Part shown: positions 19,883-26,310 of the stretch, one piece after another | Numbering within the stretch: the stretch's first letter is position 1 | How the letters are laid out: each line of letters starts with the position of its first letter | Origin: Candidatus Margulisiibacteriota bacterium | GTDB taxonomy: Bacteria > Margulisbacteria > Riflemargulisbacteria > GWF2-35-9 > DYQY01 | DNA length: 36,810 nucleotides | Reading direction: 5' to 3' | Assembly: GCA_028706105.1 (NCBI GenBank) | Contig: JAQWCF010000006.1 | Coordinates: 1-36,810, forward strand | Program-made: the position numbers and the translations under genes | The notes under the pieces: generated by a model | What the model was told of the DNA's origin: nothing | Seen by the model: only the letters and a program-made list of their open reading frames with translations | Database searches by the model: none

Positions 19883-19888
19883 TATAAT
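19883..19888 (+). promoter_or_regulatory. Consensus -10 hexamer just upstream of lepA
   Basis: TATAAT ends 8 nt before the ATG at 19897, placing a predicted transcription start at or next to the start codon. No convincing -35 is found 16-19 bp upstream and no Shine-Dalgarno exists. Consistent with leaderless lepA mRNA, but only one element is seen. Confidence 0.4.
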
Positions 19889-19896
19889 TGCTGTTG

Positions 19897-21696
19897 ATGG
19901 ATCAAAAATATATTAGAAATTTTTCAATTATTGCTCATATAGACCATGGTAAATCTACTTTAGCTGATAGATTATTGGAGGTCACAGGCACAACCAGTAA
20001 GCGTCAAATGAAAGCACAGCTCTTAGACTCTATGGATCTAGAACAAGAGCGTGGCATAACTATCAAACTTCATCCAGCAAGAATGATGTATAAGGCAGAA
20101 GATGGTAATGAATATATGCTTAATCTTATTGATACACCAGGTCACGTTGATTTTACTTATGAAGTTTCCAGAAGTTTAGCAGCCTGTGAAGGTGCTCTTT
20201 TGGTTGTAGATGCCACACAAGGCATAGAAGCCCAAACATTAGCAAACATATACTTAGCAATAGAAAACGATTTAACAATAATGCCTGTTATTAACAAGAT
20301 AGACCTTCCAGCAGCAGAACCAGAGAAAGTGATGAAAGAAGTTGAAGCGATTCTTGGACCGTCTGACTATATACCGGTTAGTGCAAAAACGGGAGTTGGA
20401 GTAAAAAATGTTCTAGAGGCGATAGTCAACTTTGTGCCTCAGCCAAAGGGTGAAGTTAATAAGCCACTTAAAGCGTTAGTTTTTGATTCTCATTTCGACA
20501 GTTATAGAGGCGTTGAAGTAATGATAAGGGTGATAGATGGAAGCATTAAAGAGGGTCAAACGATAAAGTTTATGCAAACTGATGCCGAATATGATATTAC
20601 AGAAATAGGTTATTTTAAACCAAGCCAAATTAGGACAGGCTTTTTGAATACGGGGGAAGTAGGGTACTTAATTGGGAATATAAAAAATATAGAGAATGTG
20701 AAAATAGGCGATACGATTACTCTTGCTGGAGACGAAACAGAAGAAGCATTGCCAGGATATAAAGAACCACAATCTATGGTTTTTTGTGGACTTTACCCAG
20801 TAAGTAGTGATGATTATGAAGACTTAAGGGACGCCTTACAAAAACTTAAATTAAATGATTCTTCTTTGAGGTTTGAGCCAGAAACATCCAAAGCCTTAGG
20901 TTTTGGCTTTAGGTGTGGATTTTTAGGTCTTTTACATATGGAAATCATCAAAGAGAGAATAGAGAGAGAATTCAATATTGAAATGATAGCAACATCACCG
21001 GGAGTTGTTTATCATATAACATTAACTAATGGTGAAAAATTAATTATTGATAATCCAGCCAATTATCCTGAACGAGGAATTGTAGAAATAATAGAGGAAC
21101 CAATTGCCAAGGCGAATATAATTTTGCCGAACGAATATGTGGGTGCCATTATGGATTTATGTAATAGAAAAAGAGGAAAACTAGACCATATGGAATATTT
21201 AACAGAAGAAAGAATAATGCTTTACTATAGGCTTCCTTTAAATGAGATTGTGGTTGATTTTTTTGGTCAACTGAAGTCTCTGAGCAAGGGATATGCTTCA
21301 CTGGATTATGAGCTCGCAGGATACGAATCATCAGATTTGGTGAAGGTTGATATTCTTTTAAAGAGTGATTTAGTTGATGCTTTTTCTTTTATTTGTCACA
21401 AAGATCATGCTTATTTTAGGGGTAGAGCTATTGTAAAAAAATTAAGAGAATTAATACCAAGACAAATGTTTGAGATACCTATTCAAGCCTCTATCGGAAG
21501 CAAAATTATTTCTAGAGAAACGATTAAAGCGTTAAGAAAAAATGTTACAGCCAAGTGTTATGGCGGTGATATTTCTAGAAAAAGAAAGCTTTTAGAGAAA
21601 CAAAAAGAAGGTAAAAAGAGGATGAAAAGTGTGGGAAGTGTTGAAATTCCAGATGAAGCTTTCATGTCCATCTTAAGTATCGAAGACGAAAAATAA
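19897..21696 (+). CDS. lepA: Elongation factor 4 (LepA)
   Basis: Ribosome-associated translational GTPase that affects initiation and stalled elongation. G1 is AHIDHGKST, followed by [15 protein letters not shown]3 is DTPGHVDF and G4 is NKIDLP. Domain IV/C-terminal marks include [19 protein letters not shown] and [18 protein letters not shown] near the end. From ATG 19897 it is 599 aa, the usual size. An in-frame TTG nine bases upstream overlaps the -10 box and is rejected. The next gene, hemW, starts immediately after the stop, as in Bacillus lepA-hemW order. Confidence 0.97.
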
Positions 21697-22737
21697 ATGG
21701 TATCCCATTTTTATGTTCACATTCCATATTGCACAACAAAATGTGACTACTGTGATTTTTATTCTGTTTCCGGAAACTCATGCGTTGATGAGGTTTACGT
21801 GGATGCTGTTTTATTAGAGATACAAGAAAGGTATCAGGGTGACAAACTAGAGACTATTTTTTTTGGTGGTGGAACACCAAGTCTTTTAAGTGGCAAGCAG
21901 ATAGAAAAAATATTTAGTAAACTGAACATTTCAACAAATTGTGAGATAACTATTGAATGTAATCCAGAGACATTAAATCATCAGCAACTCCTGTCTTTTC
22001 GGAAATCAGGCATTAATAGACTTAGTATAGGTATACAGTCTTTTAACGAGGATAAATTGAGACTTATAGGTAGAAAAAGAACAGTAAATGCACGAGAGAA
22101 AGCAGAGTTAGCTTTAAAGGTGTTTGATAATGTTGGGATTGATTTAATGTATGCACTACCTAAGCAAAAAAAGTCAGATATTTTTAGAGAAGTAAGCCTG
22201 ATCCCACAAGAAATAAAACATGTTTCTTATTATGCGCTTACTTTGGAAAAGAAGACAAAACTTTATAGCAAACTAAACGGGAGGCATCCTGTAAAGGACG
22301 ACGCTCAAGCAGAACTTGCAGAAGAAGTGTTGCAAGGGCTAGAGAGTAGAGGATATGAGCGTTATGAAATATCTAATTTTGCAAACAAGGGATATGAGTG
22401 TAAACACAACTTAGCTTATTGGGACTATTTGGATTACCTGGGGGTAGGCGCAGGTGCAGTTTCTACTGTCAGCGGAATTAGAACAGAGAACATTAAAGAT
22501 ATTGGCAAGTATGTCCAAGGTACAAAAGCTAATCAAGATAGATTAACAGAAAATGAACAAGTGAATGAAAGACTAATGATGAATTTAAGAACCATAAACG
22601 GTGCACCACTTGAGAAACGATTTAAAACGGTTGTAGATAGATATGGCGACCTTCTTGTTGTGAAAGAAGGTCGCTTAATCCTGACCAATAAAGGGTTTTT
22701 GTTTCACGATACCATTGTGGGTGAACTAATGTTATAA
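21697..22737 (+). CDS. hemW: HemW-like radical SAM protein (heme chaperone)
   Basis: The radical-SAM cluster motif is C12-TTK-C16-DY-C19 in HIPYCTTKCDYCDFYS, which is HemW style; FFGGGTPSLL and IECNPETL follow. HemW members bind heme and probably insert it into respiratory proteins, unlike the true coproporphyrinogen dehydrogenase HemN. Length 346 aa is short of the about 380 usual, with a compact C-terminal domain. It abuts lepA (TAA-ATG) and overlaps the convergent prepilin gene by 6 nt. Confidence 0.9.
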   Translation: MVSHFYVHIPYCTTKCDYCDFYSVSGNSCVDEVYVDAVLLEIQERYQGDKLETIFFGGGTPSLLSGKQIEKIFSKLNISTNCEITIECNPETLNHQQLLSFRKSGINRLSIGIQSFNEDKLRLIGRKRTVNAREKAELALKVFDNVGIDLMYALPKQKKSDIFREVSLIPQEIKHVSYYALTLEKKTKLYSKLNGRHPVKDDAQAELAEEVLQGLESRGYERYEISNFANKGYECKHNLAYWDYLDYLGVGAGAVSTVSGIRTENIKDIGKYVQGTKANQDRLTENEQVNERLMMNLRTINGAPLEKRFKTVVDRYGDLLVVKEGRLILTNKGFLFHDTIVGELML

Positions 22738-23142
22738 GCTGTTTAGGCTAAGTCCAACAGTTGTACCATCTGCTTCGTATAGATTGAGAGTATAGTCCTC
22801 CCCATCACTAGAAGCATAAGTGATTTTACCCTTAGTGTCGCTATCAGCGTATGCTTTTTTGGTATACGGATTTATTGGGCTTGTTTTGATTAGCTCCTCG
22901 GTTTTTAATGTTTCAAAAAGTTCTTTTGCTCCTAAACTGCCTGAGGGATAAATATTATTTTCGATAAAATAATTTTCTACGCAAGATTGAAAAGTTCGCA
23001 AGTTAACTTCCGCCGTCATTTGATTGCTTTTATTTTGAATTTTTTTAATATTTGGCACAACAAAAGAACTCAGTATAACCATTAACGACAAAGCAATAAG
23101 TAGCTCAAACAAACTAAACCCTGATCTTTTTTTCATTTTCAT
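22732..23142 (-). CDS. Type IV pilin / pseudopilin-like prepilin
   Basis: A 136-aa prepilin. The leader MKMKKRSG is followed by FSLFELLIALSLMVILSSF, with the prepilin-peptidase cleavage expected after Gly8 and the conserved Glu at +5. The C-terminal part resembles the compact GspG/PulG-type head (NIYPSG, INPYTKKAYADSD, then ITYASSDGEDYTL). No other pilus or secretion gene is in the window, so the assembly machinery must lie elsewhere. GGAGGTG precedes the ATG and a strong promoter lies upstream. Confidence 0.9.
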   Translation of the reverse strand: MKMKKRSGFSLFELLIALSLMVILSSFVVPNIKKIQNKSNQMTAEVNLRTFQSCVENYFIENNIYPSGSLGAKELFETLKTEELIKTSPINPYTKKAYADSDTKGKITYASSDGEDYTLNLYEADGTTVGLSLNSL

Positions 23143-23270: not shown

Positions 23271-23299
23271 TTGCTATCAAATAATTAAATCAATATAAT
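23271..23299 (+). promoter_or_regulatory. Promoter of the small membrane ORF and outer-membrane protein
   Basis: TTGCTA (23271-23276), a 17-bp spacer and TATAAT (23294-23299). The ATG of the small ORF begins at 23307, 7 nt after the -10, so transcription should start at or within a base or two of it. Confidence 0.7.
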
Positions 23300-23306
23300 G
23301 GTTACT

Positions 23307-23405
23307 ATGGATCAAGGACGCCTTAGTTATCTTATGGTTTCAGCTTTTGTTGTAACCTTTTTTTATACAGTAAAACTACTGATAGAAACAATAATCGCTT
23401 ATTAA
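23307..23405 (+). CDS. Unannotated 32-aa single-span membrane peptide, leaderless
   Basis: Frame from ATG 23307 to TAA 23403-23405, starting MDQGRLSYLMVSAFVV and ending LLIETIIAY. Residues about 7-29 are hydrophobic, predicting one membrane span with Lys22 inside it. The stop overlaps the ATG of the downstream outer-membrane protein gene by one base (TAATG). That downstream gene has no Shine-Dalgarno of its own, so it would be translated by coupling to this ORF. An in-frame ATG at 23298 overlaps the -10 box and is unlikely. Function unknown; possible regulator, leader peptide or envelope peptide. Confidence 0.6.
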   Translation: MDQGRLSYLMVSAFVVTFFYTVKLLIETIIAY

Positions 23406-24544
23406 TGAATTATCGTGTTTCTAATTTCTTATTATATTTAAGTCTGCTTATTGTTATGACGTCTACTTCTTTTGCACGTTATGGTAATTTATCTATGAAT
23501 GATTTGGAGCAAGATAGTGGCGGTACATTTTCTATGATTTCTCGTGAGGGTCAAAATGTGCTGAACATGAACATAGCTAAGAGTTTTTCTTTTGATGATC
23601 TTAGTGCGAGAGTGGGAGTAAACATTGTTTTCCCAGAAAACAAAAGACCACAAGGTTTATCTTTATTGGAGATTAGATATGTTCAGTACGACAATGGATT
23701 ATGGGGCATTAGATTTGGAGAATTGTCAGCGGAAACCTATGGATATGGTCTTATTATGGATGATTATGATGCTTCGCCGGAATCAACTTATTTCAATATG
23801 AGTAGAGCAGGGGCAAAGGGATATACAAAAATATTTTCACCTTTGGGTGTCTATGCCATGCACTCAGGGACAGGTGTAGCGGGTGCGAGATTTACTTATG
23901 AATTAGTGAAACTACTAGAGCTTAATACACCACTAGTTGTAGGGCTTAGTTATATTGTAGACAGTGATGGCATTGTGGATTCCACGGGTACATTGATAAA
24001 CAAAAATGCTCAGGGATATAGTGCAGATTTAGGTTTTAAACTGATAGACCCTTGGATGGATGCTTATTTAGAATATGGATTGTTGTCAAACCAGTCTAGC
24101 GCTTTAGCTTTAGGCACAAAAATAGATGGGGGTGAGATAATAGACTATAGGCTGGAATATCGTATATTAGGAGAAAATTTTATTCCTGGTTTTTTTAATG
24201 CGAACTATGAAATAGCTCCGGCGAATATAAAAGATTCTTATCCAGCTGGATATGGATATTTTGCGGGAGCAGAGGTAAGGTTTGCACCACTTGGTGTTGT
24301 AAGTTTTGGTTATGAGAAGTATAGTAACAGGGACTCTGTGTTAAGGGCGGCAGTGGCTTTTAATAAAATAAACGGCATGTCTGGTGTTGTTTCTTATGAG
24401 CAGACACTGCAGTCAGCAACATCACATAAAATTAATGGTGTCTTGGTTTACCCATTAAATGCTGTTACGAGCCTAGTGACTTATTTTGAAAAAATAGGAA
24501 ACAAAGAAACTTCTTATACCGTAGCTTACAAAATGAATTTTTGA
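23405..24544 (+). CDS. Outer-membrane beta-barrel protein, unknown function
   Basis: A 379-aa exported protein. Residues 1-24 are a signal peptide with probable cleavage after SFA. The mature protein has many alternating hydrophobic and aromatic strands (for example LLEIRYVQYDNGLWGIRFG, ADLGFKLIDPWMDAYLEYG, VSFGYEKYSN) and ends YTVAYKMNF, the terminal Phe typical of barrels handled by BamA. This is the best evidence of a diderm envelope here. No specific porin family recognised. Coupled to the small ORF upstream; its own start lacks a Shine-Dalgarno. Confidence 0.8.
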   Translation: MNYRVSNFLLYLSLLIVMTSTSFARYGNLSMNDLEQDSGGTFSMISREGQNVLNMNIAKSFSFDDLSARVGVNIVFPENKRPQGLSLLEIRYVQYDNGLWGIRFGELSAETYGYGLIMDDYDASPESTYFNMSRAGAKGYTKIFSPLGVYAMHSGTGVAGARFTYELVKLLELNTPLVVGLSYIVDSDGIVDSTGTLINKNAQGYSADLGFKLIDPWMDAYLEYGLLSNQSSALALGTKIDGGEIIDYRLEYRILGENFIPGFFNANYEIAPANIKDSYPAGYGYFAGAEVRFAPLGVVSFGYEKYSNRDSVLRAAVAFNKINGMSGVVSYEQTLQSATSHKINGVLVYPLNAVTSLVTYFEKIGNKETSYTVAYKMNF

Positions 24545-24564: not shown

Positions 24565-25170
24565 GTGTACGATAAAAAGAAAAAATATGGAGAAAAGCTT
24601 AATAAGCCAACAAAAAAAATACACTCCAAACCAGCCAACTTGCTTTATCCAATACCTGCAGTGATTATCTCTTGTGGAATTGAGCCAAAGGACCATAATT
24701 TAATAACAGTTTCTTGGGCAGGAACAATTTGTAGTGATCCAGTTATGCTTTCAATTTCCCTAAGACCATCCCGTCATTCATATAAAATAATTAAAGAAAC
24801 AGGAGAATTTGTTGTGAATTTGACAGATATGATGATGGTTAAAGAAACAGATTTCTGCGGAGTTAGGTCAGGTAAAGAGATGGACAAATGGTCTGTGCTT
24901 AGGCTCAAGAAATCAGCATCACAACAAATTGCTACACCACAAATTGCTACTTCTCCAGTCAGTTTAGAGTGTAAAACAAAACAGATTTTATCCTTAGGTT
25001 CCCATGATTGCTTCATAGCAGAAGTAGTTGGCGTTTCTGTAAGGGAAGACCTGGTGAATAAAAGCGGAGAGTTTAATCTGGATAAAGCAAATCTAATAGC
25101 TTACAGTCATGGTTCATATTATTCATTAGGTCAAAAATTAGGAAAATTTGGCTTTTCAGTAAAGAAATAA
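24565..25170 (+). CDS. Flavin reductase-like, FMN-binding protein (flavoredoxin family)
   Basis: A 201-aa protein of the flavin-reductase-like split-barrel family. PIPAVIISCGIEP, NLITVSWAGTICSDPVMLSISLRPSRHS (in parts), GEFVVNLTD and the C-terminal YSHGSYYSLGQKLGKFGFSV are typical. The family binds FMN and transfers electrons or reduces flavin; the substrate is unknown. I choose GTG 24565 because AGAGGAG lies 6-7 nt upstream; an in-frame TTG at 24541 would sit before that site and overlap the upstream stop. Confidence 0.85.
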   Translation: MYDKKKKYGEKLNKPTKKIHSKPANLLYPIPAVIISCGIEPKDHNLITVSWAGTICSDPVMLSISLRPSRHSYKIIKETGEFVVNLTDMMMVKETDFCGVRSGKEMDKWSVLRLKKSASQQIATPQIATSPVSLECKTKQILSLGSHDCFIAEVVGVSVREDLVNKSGEFNLDKANLIAYSHGSYYSLGQKLGKFGFSVKK

Positions 25171-25172
25171 AC

Positions 25173-25967
25173 CTAAATATTTAATTTTTCAAAAACAGTT
25201 CTACCAGTGGATACTGCGTCTTTGTTAATAAAGTGATAGTCTCTTTGATATTGTAAATTATCTCTTTCTTTTTGAAATTCTTCTCGCATTCTTTTGCATA
25301 CTTTTATTTTGATTGTTAAGGCGTGTTCTTGGCTGTAATAGTTTGTTTTACCCAGTTTGTTCATTTGAGTTGCTAGTTGTTGTCTAATTTCATCCATTAT
25401 CCTAACTTCTTTTTTTATTTTTTTTGGAGAGCCACCTATTACATAAATCATTTCTTCATTGTATTCGTTCTCTTCGAATAGCAGCTCGTTCTCTTCCTGC
25501 GCACCCTTAAGTGCCCTTTTTTGCATTTTCATAAGCTCGGGAGGAGCAAGACCTAGGTTAGAGAGGGTTTGAGACAAAAAAGCCGTTTTGAGCTCAGCGA
25601 ATTTAGCAACCATAAAATTATGTGATTTAGACTGTAAAAAGTTTTTGATGTATTTATCTTTAAGGGTTTCTATTTTTTCTTGTAGATTAATTTTGTAGCC
25701 CATTTTATAGGCAATAACATTTGCAGAAACAGATTTATCCATTTGTCTAATACTGCTTAGTTTGACATGGTCTGTTTCTAGTAAAGGGTCTATTTTTTTT
25801 GTGCCATCGTCTTTTTTGACAATATTCCATTTTATTTTAGAATTAGACGAAGCTATTGCGCTTTCCCTTGTTTGGGCTTCTTTTTCTAGGGCTTGCTTGT
25901 AAGCATCTAAATTATTAGCTTTGAGCTGTCTACTTAAGTCAACATTATTGATTTTGTGGATGACCAT
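25173..25967 (-). CDS. Hypothetical protein, helical, coupled orphan
   Basis: A 264-aa charged, mainly helical soluble protein with no signal peptide or membrane segment. Residues about 95-165 and 185-245 look like long amphipathic helices (LKTAFLSQTLSNLGL; EEFQKERDNLQYQRDYHF). Between them a short hydrophobic MIYVIGGSPKKIKKE stands out. It starts 4 nt after the stop of the upstream 112-aa gene with no Shine-Dalgarno, so the two are probably translated together. No family recognised. Confidence 0.7.
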   Translation of the reverse strand: MVIHKINNVDLSRQLKANNLDAYKQALEKEAQTRESAIASSNSKIKWNIVKKDDGTKKIDPLLETDHVKLSSIRQMDKSVSANVIAYKMGYKINLQEKIETLKDKYIKNFLQSKSHNFMVAKFAELKTAFLSQTLSNLGLAPPELMKMQKRALKGAQEENELLFEENEYNEEMIYVIGGSPKKIKKEVRIMDEIRQQLATQMNKLGKTNYYSQEHALTIKIKVCKRMREEFQKERDNLQYQRDYHFINKDAVSTGRTVFEKLNI

Positions 25968-25971
25968 TATA

Positions 25972-26310
25972 TTATGATATCAGCCTAGATACTTCCTTTT
26001 CAATTTCTTTAAGAAAATCAAAACTGGACACTAGAGTTCTACTAAGGTCTTTTAGTTCATTAAGCTTAGTATTGATAAAGAAAAGCGAACCAGCGGAATT
26101 CTTATCTTCTATTAATTGTCCATCAATTGTCATAGATTCTACAGCTGGGTCAGCTAAATCTAGCGTGATTTTGTTAATAGTACCCTCTAATGTTTTCATG
26201 AAGGTTTTTCTATCACCGAGATAATATTTCTCATTACGATTTGTAATTAGTAAAGATTGCTTGGAATCATTACTTTTAAAAGCTGAGTCAGCATTTATAA
26301 AACCAGACAT
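25972..26310 (-). CDS. Hypothetical protein, small, coupled orphan
   Basis: A 112-aa protein starting MSGFINADSAFKSND, with AAAGGGG as Shine-Dalgarno. A mixed first half (LLITNRNEKYYLGDRKTF) is followed by a helical C terminus (KLNELKDLSRTLVSSFDFLKEIEKEVSRLIS). No signal peptide or known domain. It leads the two-gene unit with the 264-aa protein. Size and pairing would suit a chaperone-effector or two-subunit complex, but that is speculation. Confidence 0.7.
   Translation of the reverse strand: MSGFINADSAFKSNDSKQSLLITNRNEKYYLGDRKTFMKTLEGTINKITLDLADPAVESMTIDGQLIEDKNSAGSLFFINTKLNELKDLSRTLVSSFDFLKEIEKEVSRLIS

Follow-up and report, generated by a model that had tools for sequence, protein, structure and literature searches.

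Can an open reading frame (ORF) of 32 codons, lying between a promoter and the start codon of a predicted outer-membrane protein, be a gene in its own right, and if so, does it act through its product or through the act of its translation? The question is raised by a locus in a 36,810-nucleotide stretch of DNA (the window) from G000, a 1.93-Mb MAG of the phylum Margulisbacteria, for which the original prediction offered two roles, a leader-peptide control device or an envelope partner of the downstream barrel. Comparison with related genomes points to a different answer: the ORF probably encodes a conserved single-span membrane protein of 32–33 residues that is the leaderless first cistron of its operon, functions in trans and is often followed by re-initiation on the next gene.

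A small ORF directly behind a promoter

The ORF occupies positions 23307–23405 of the plus strand (32 codons plus TAA) and encodes MDQGRLSYLMVSAFVVTFFYTVKLLIETIIAY; homology and the dN/dS against the congener G001 mark it as a small membrane protein gene. On the same strand it is preceded by a −35 element, TTGCTA (23271–23276, read directly), and, after a 17-bp spacer, by a −10 element, TATAAT (23294–23299), which lies 7 nt before the ATG at 23307–23309 and is backed by conservation of the hexamer in the order and by a genome-wide −10 peak. The hydrophobic span covers about residues 8–32 (23328–23402, plus strand; Kyte–Doolittle and alignment) and includes a TxxYxxK motif at residues 17–23. 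The 17-residue Kyte–Doolittle maximum is about 1.98 in the G000 peptide and 1.98–2.19 across the peptides of six genomes, in all of which the span is long enough to cross a membrane. At its end, the TAA stop (23403–23405) shares its last A with the ATG at 23405 of a 379-aa ORF, forming a TAATG overlap (23403–23407, plus strand, read directly). The promoter and hydrophobic ORF of the original prediction were thus confirmed to the base, and so was its one-base overlap with the barrel start. Searches for the peptide family in Pfam and NCBIfam returned no match.

Such an arrangement is easily found in this genome. In 437 kb of G000, surveyed on both strands for ORFs of 12–70 codons, 87 ORFs had a −10-like hexamer 6–8 nt before their ATG. 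As the promoter–ORF pattern is common by chance, conservation was taken as the deciding test.

The promoter itself is shared among relatives. A −10-like hexamer stands 6–8 nt before the peptide ATG in all six genomes that carry the peptide (TATAAT, TATAAT, TACAAT, TAAAAT, TATAAT and TATAAT). By eye, TTGnnn with a 17-bp spacer is seen in four of them (TTGCTA in G000 and G001, TTGTTT in G003 and TTGTAT in G004), and G002 and G005 have no TTG at the −35 position. From this sequence context we infer that transcription starts at or next to the ATG at 23307 and that the peptide gene is leaderless. The same signature recurs across the genome: among 327 genes in the 437-kb sample of G000 used for the leaderless survey, 48 −10 boxes were found at gaps of 6–8 nt before the ATG versus 9.4 expected from a background of 3.1 boxes per position, an excess corresponding to about 12% of genes, with the genome-wide peak at 6–7 nt. 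This peak is also present in G001 (about 12% of genes), G004 (about 6%) and the distant G011 (about 9%), and leaderless starts therefore look widespread in Margulisbacteria, at an estimated 6–12% of genes in four genomes. Apparently leaderless genes in G000 include lepA, hisA, hisF and gltX (names other than lepA judged from N-terminal sequences). The lepA gene lies in the window at 19888–21696; its longest ORF opens at TTG 19888, the likely start is ATG 19897, and a TATAAT 8 nt upstream of this ATG, as in G001, makes it apparently leaderless. Among the papers covered by a full-text search, none paired 'Margulisbacteria' with 'leaderless'.

Conservation and selection within one order

Seven genomes of the window's order were compared (G000–G006), among which G001 is a congener of G000 and G002 and G005 share another genus. 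The peptide is present in six of them (G000–G005; E-values of 1e-14 to 1e-18), with a common reading frame and −10-to-ATG spacing, so that conservation of the frame in relatives, which the original prediction had set as its test, held in six genomes of one order. The G001 peptide is identical to that of G000 at 28 of 32 residues, and its gene shares the promoter and the TAATG of G000; the others are MDNTRLNILIASTLVLTVIYSFKLAFNGLFLLR (G004), MDNSRFMLLFTFTIFLTVIYSLKVIIEKLVFLN (G003), MHPQEKINLVVFGTVMTTIIYIIKLLFSWQWVR (G002) and MQPQEKINLVVFGTVMTTIIYIIKLLLSWHWVQ (G005). Four residues, M1, T17, Y20 and K23, are invariant in the six peptides. The seventh genome, G006 (completeness estimate of 86%), has no HemW match, and the peptide locus is for that reason probably missing from its assembly, which makes G006 uninformative. 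No convincing homologue was found outside the order in the other phylum genomes searched; weak matches there (E-values of 0.006 and worse) were partial, many of them inside long frames, and were treated as chance.

The substitutions between close relatives are strongly biased towards synonymous sites. G000 and G001 differ at 20 nucleotides, 12 of them at third positions (dN 0.11, dS 1.11), with 4 amino-acid changes versus 13.0 expected under random placement of substitutions. G002 and G005 differ at 15 nucleotides, 13 of them at third positions (dN 0.067, dS 0.77), again with 4 amino-acid changes, versus 10.5 expected under the same model. The dN/dS ratios of the two close pairs are 0.095 and 0.087 (about 0.09), and none of 5,000 simulations in each pair was as conservative as the observed sequences. 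Judged by these substitution patterns, the ORF is under purifying selection and is selected as a protein.

The predicted downstream barrel and its loss

The 379-aa ORF at 23405–24544 (plus strand; ORF and homology) was originally described as an outer-membrane barrel. This description remains plausible: a signal peptide, a C-terminal NF with its aromatic F and many predicted strands speak for it, but the protein has no match in Pfam, PDB or NCBIfam, and an AlphaFold2 model built from three sequences (pLDDT 37) was too poor for a structure search. Homologues occur in 49 of the 75 genomes searched, nearly all of them Margulisbacteria. In many of the phylum's other families, the gene that precedes the barrel gene, probably purH, encodes a protein with FTGRRHF(K/R)H at its C-terminus. 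A distant homologue (27% identity) was also seen in L069, a MAG labelled Candidatus Poribacteria, which could reflect either a wider spread or a mislabelled bin.

The third cistron is a flavin reductase-like gene (24565–25170, plus strand; Flavin_Reduct E-value of 2.9e-26, synteny) with a GTG start and the Shine–Dalgarno (SD) sequence AGAGGAG. On the other side, a type IV pilin-like gene diverges from the peptide gene (22732–23142, minus strand; Pfam N_methyl and T2SSG, synteny; NCBIfam GspG/ComGE-like match below cut-off) under its own minus-strand promoter (TTGACG, 17-bp spacer, TATAAT). An ACGTCAA motif found upstream in several relatives was considered as a separate operator and rejected, the copy in the window being the pilin −35 element. 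All six genomes have the pilin gene next to the peptide gene (the G005 contig holds only the first pilin codons), a constancy that may be mere synteny. Beyond the flavin reductase, the minus strand of the window carries a gene pair (25173–25967 and 25972–26310; 264 and 112 aa) with no Pfam or NCBIfam match; its synteny is conserved in G001 and G003, and the larger gene is also present in G004.

The order peptide, barrel, flavin reductase is found in G000, G001 and G004. No barrel homologue was found in G002 and G005, where the peptide and its leaderless promoter are kept, flanked by the divergent pilin gene on one side and on the other by the flavin reductase gene, which is there the second cistron; given the order in the other three genomes, the third gene would have come to lie next to the peptide when the barrel was lost. 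The promoter–ORF–barrel layout expected in relatives was accordingly recovered in G001, G003 and G004 but not in the two genomes without a barrel. As the G002 and G005 peptides differ almost only synonymously, selection appears to have continued after barrel loss, an argument that assumes a single loss in their common ancestor. In G003 the flavin reductase gene is located elsewhere, and the peptide is absent upstream of the flavin reductase gene in both G003 and G007. Because the peptide is kept without the barrel in one genus and is absent before the flavin reductase in these two genomes, it is, by this comparison of gene orders, strictly tied to neither gene.

Membrane protein or leader

In the membrane-protein reading that we favour, RNA polymerase would start at or beside the A of the peptide ATG, and ribosomes would start directly on the 5′-terminal AUG, as predicted for roughly a tenth of G000 genes. 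The peptide would then insert in the inner membrane and act there in trans, while ribosomes that reach its stop would move on, by sliding or re-initiation, to the start codon overlapping it, that of the barrel in the window's genus and that of the flavin reductase in the barrel-less genus. A limit on this reading is the narrow range of the peptide, whose six carrier genomes all belong to a single order. We tentatively suggest, as a possibility well short of probable, that the peptide is an order-specific small envelope protein and the stable element of the locus beside the divergent pilin gene, with the downstream cistron swapped and recaptured by overlap; it would then be a portable leaderless translation starter as well as a functional protein.

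The re-initiation step rests on the junction between the peptide and the next gene. No SD sequence is visible before the barrel ATG in G000, as had been noted originally, and the peptide stop overlaps the next start in G000, G001, G002 and G005, the overlap with the flavin reductase start being ATGA in G005 and 13 nt long in G002. The overlap is absent in G003 and G004, where the barrel gene has its own SD sequence (AAGGAG and GGAGG) and lies 19 and 16 nt after the peptide stop. Overlap of stop and start without an SD sequence also occurs elsewhere in G000. The earlier claim that barrel translation needs the ORF is therefore plausible in the window's genus, with its TAATG and lack of an SD sequence, but not general, given the SD sequences of G003 and G004.

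These junctions also lend themselves to a cis-acting leader, in which the passage of ribosomes controls translation of the next gene and the hydrophobic nascent chain perhaps draws the mRNA to the membrane. The ORF is always first in its operon and often overlapped, four of the six genomes combine a stop/start overlap with no SD sequence before the next gene, and coupled leaderless small ORFs have precedents in mycobacteria (PMC4633059). Such a role is nevertheless rather unlikely: in two genomes the next gene has its own SD sequence behind a 16–19-nt gap, the amino-acid sequence is conserved although pure coupling does not need it, and the flavin reductase that follows in G002 and G005 shows no sign of export.

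Less likely still is an envelope partner that aids export or assembly of the barrel and is made in step with it. The peptide gene is adjacent to and upstream of the barrel gene in all four genomes of the order that have both, with a tight overlap in the window's genus, but dozens of phylum genomes have barrel homologues without the peptide, and the two barrel-less genomes, G002 and G005, keep it under selection and joined to a flavin reductase gene. The original proposal of a barrel partner was not supported by this comparison, and a barrel-specific role is disfavoured.

Also disfavoured, and very improbable, is an attenuation or ribosome-arrest leader peptide that senses a small molecule. The position of a short ORF at the head of an operon would suit the leader-peptide control first envisaged; against it, the ORF contains no regulatory codon runs, there is no untranslated gap for an attenuator or terminator between it and the next gene, and the fold of the 174-nt 5′ end gave no significant RNA structure (z −0.69). 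In G000 the start codon of the barrel gene lies within an inverted repeat, TAGAAAC...GTTTCTA (23383–23424 of the window), whose local hairpin (z −2.23) has no counterpart in the congener G001 (z +0.33). Last, that the ORF arose by chance or is a spurious call, for which the frequency of similar promoter–ORF patterns in AT-rich G000 might speak, is refuted by conservation of its frame, residues and spacing in six genomes, together with the synonymous-biased changes in two pairs, and has practically no probability left.

On the membrane-protein reading, a phylum known mostly from metagenomes gains a family of conserved small membrane proteins, of a size commonly missed by gene callers, and the locus also suggests that leaderless translation is widespread in Margulisbacteria. 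In its length and single hydrophobic span the peptide resembles small bacterial membrane proteins in general, from which it is set apart by the lack of a Pfam or NCBIfam match. Zheng et al. 2011 (PMC3160421) infer leaderless bacterial genes from −10-like signals before the start codon; the signature used here is of the same type and is seen genome-wide, but is applied to Margulisbacteria. Termination–reinitiation at overlapping gene pairs is a widespread form of coupling (Huber et al. 2019, PMC6728339), and the present junctions resemble those pairs in their overlapping stop and start, with or without an SD sequence; they differ in that the upstream gene is a 32-codon small protein, the coupling is predicted and the overlap is missing in two relatives.

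The closest parallel is the leaderless small ORFs of mycobacteria that are coupled to a downstream gene (Shell et al. 2015, PMC4633059; Smith et al. 2022, PMC9094748). In both cases a short ORF opens a leaderless mRNA as the first gene of an operon in genomes with a general leaderless habit, and stop and start overlap, by RTGA in mycobacteria and by TAATG, ATGA or 13 nt here. The differences are that the present ORF belongs to a different phylum and encodes a hydrophobic, sequence-conserved membrane peptide that is not Cys-rich. In one mycobacterial example the linkage is kept and the sequence is not (PMC4633059), whereas here the downstream partner changes between genera and the peptide sequence is kept. 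Loss of the barrel with retention of the peptide provides a natural experiment on whether coupled leaderless small ORFs are leaders or proteins.
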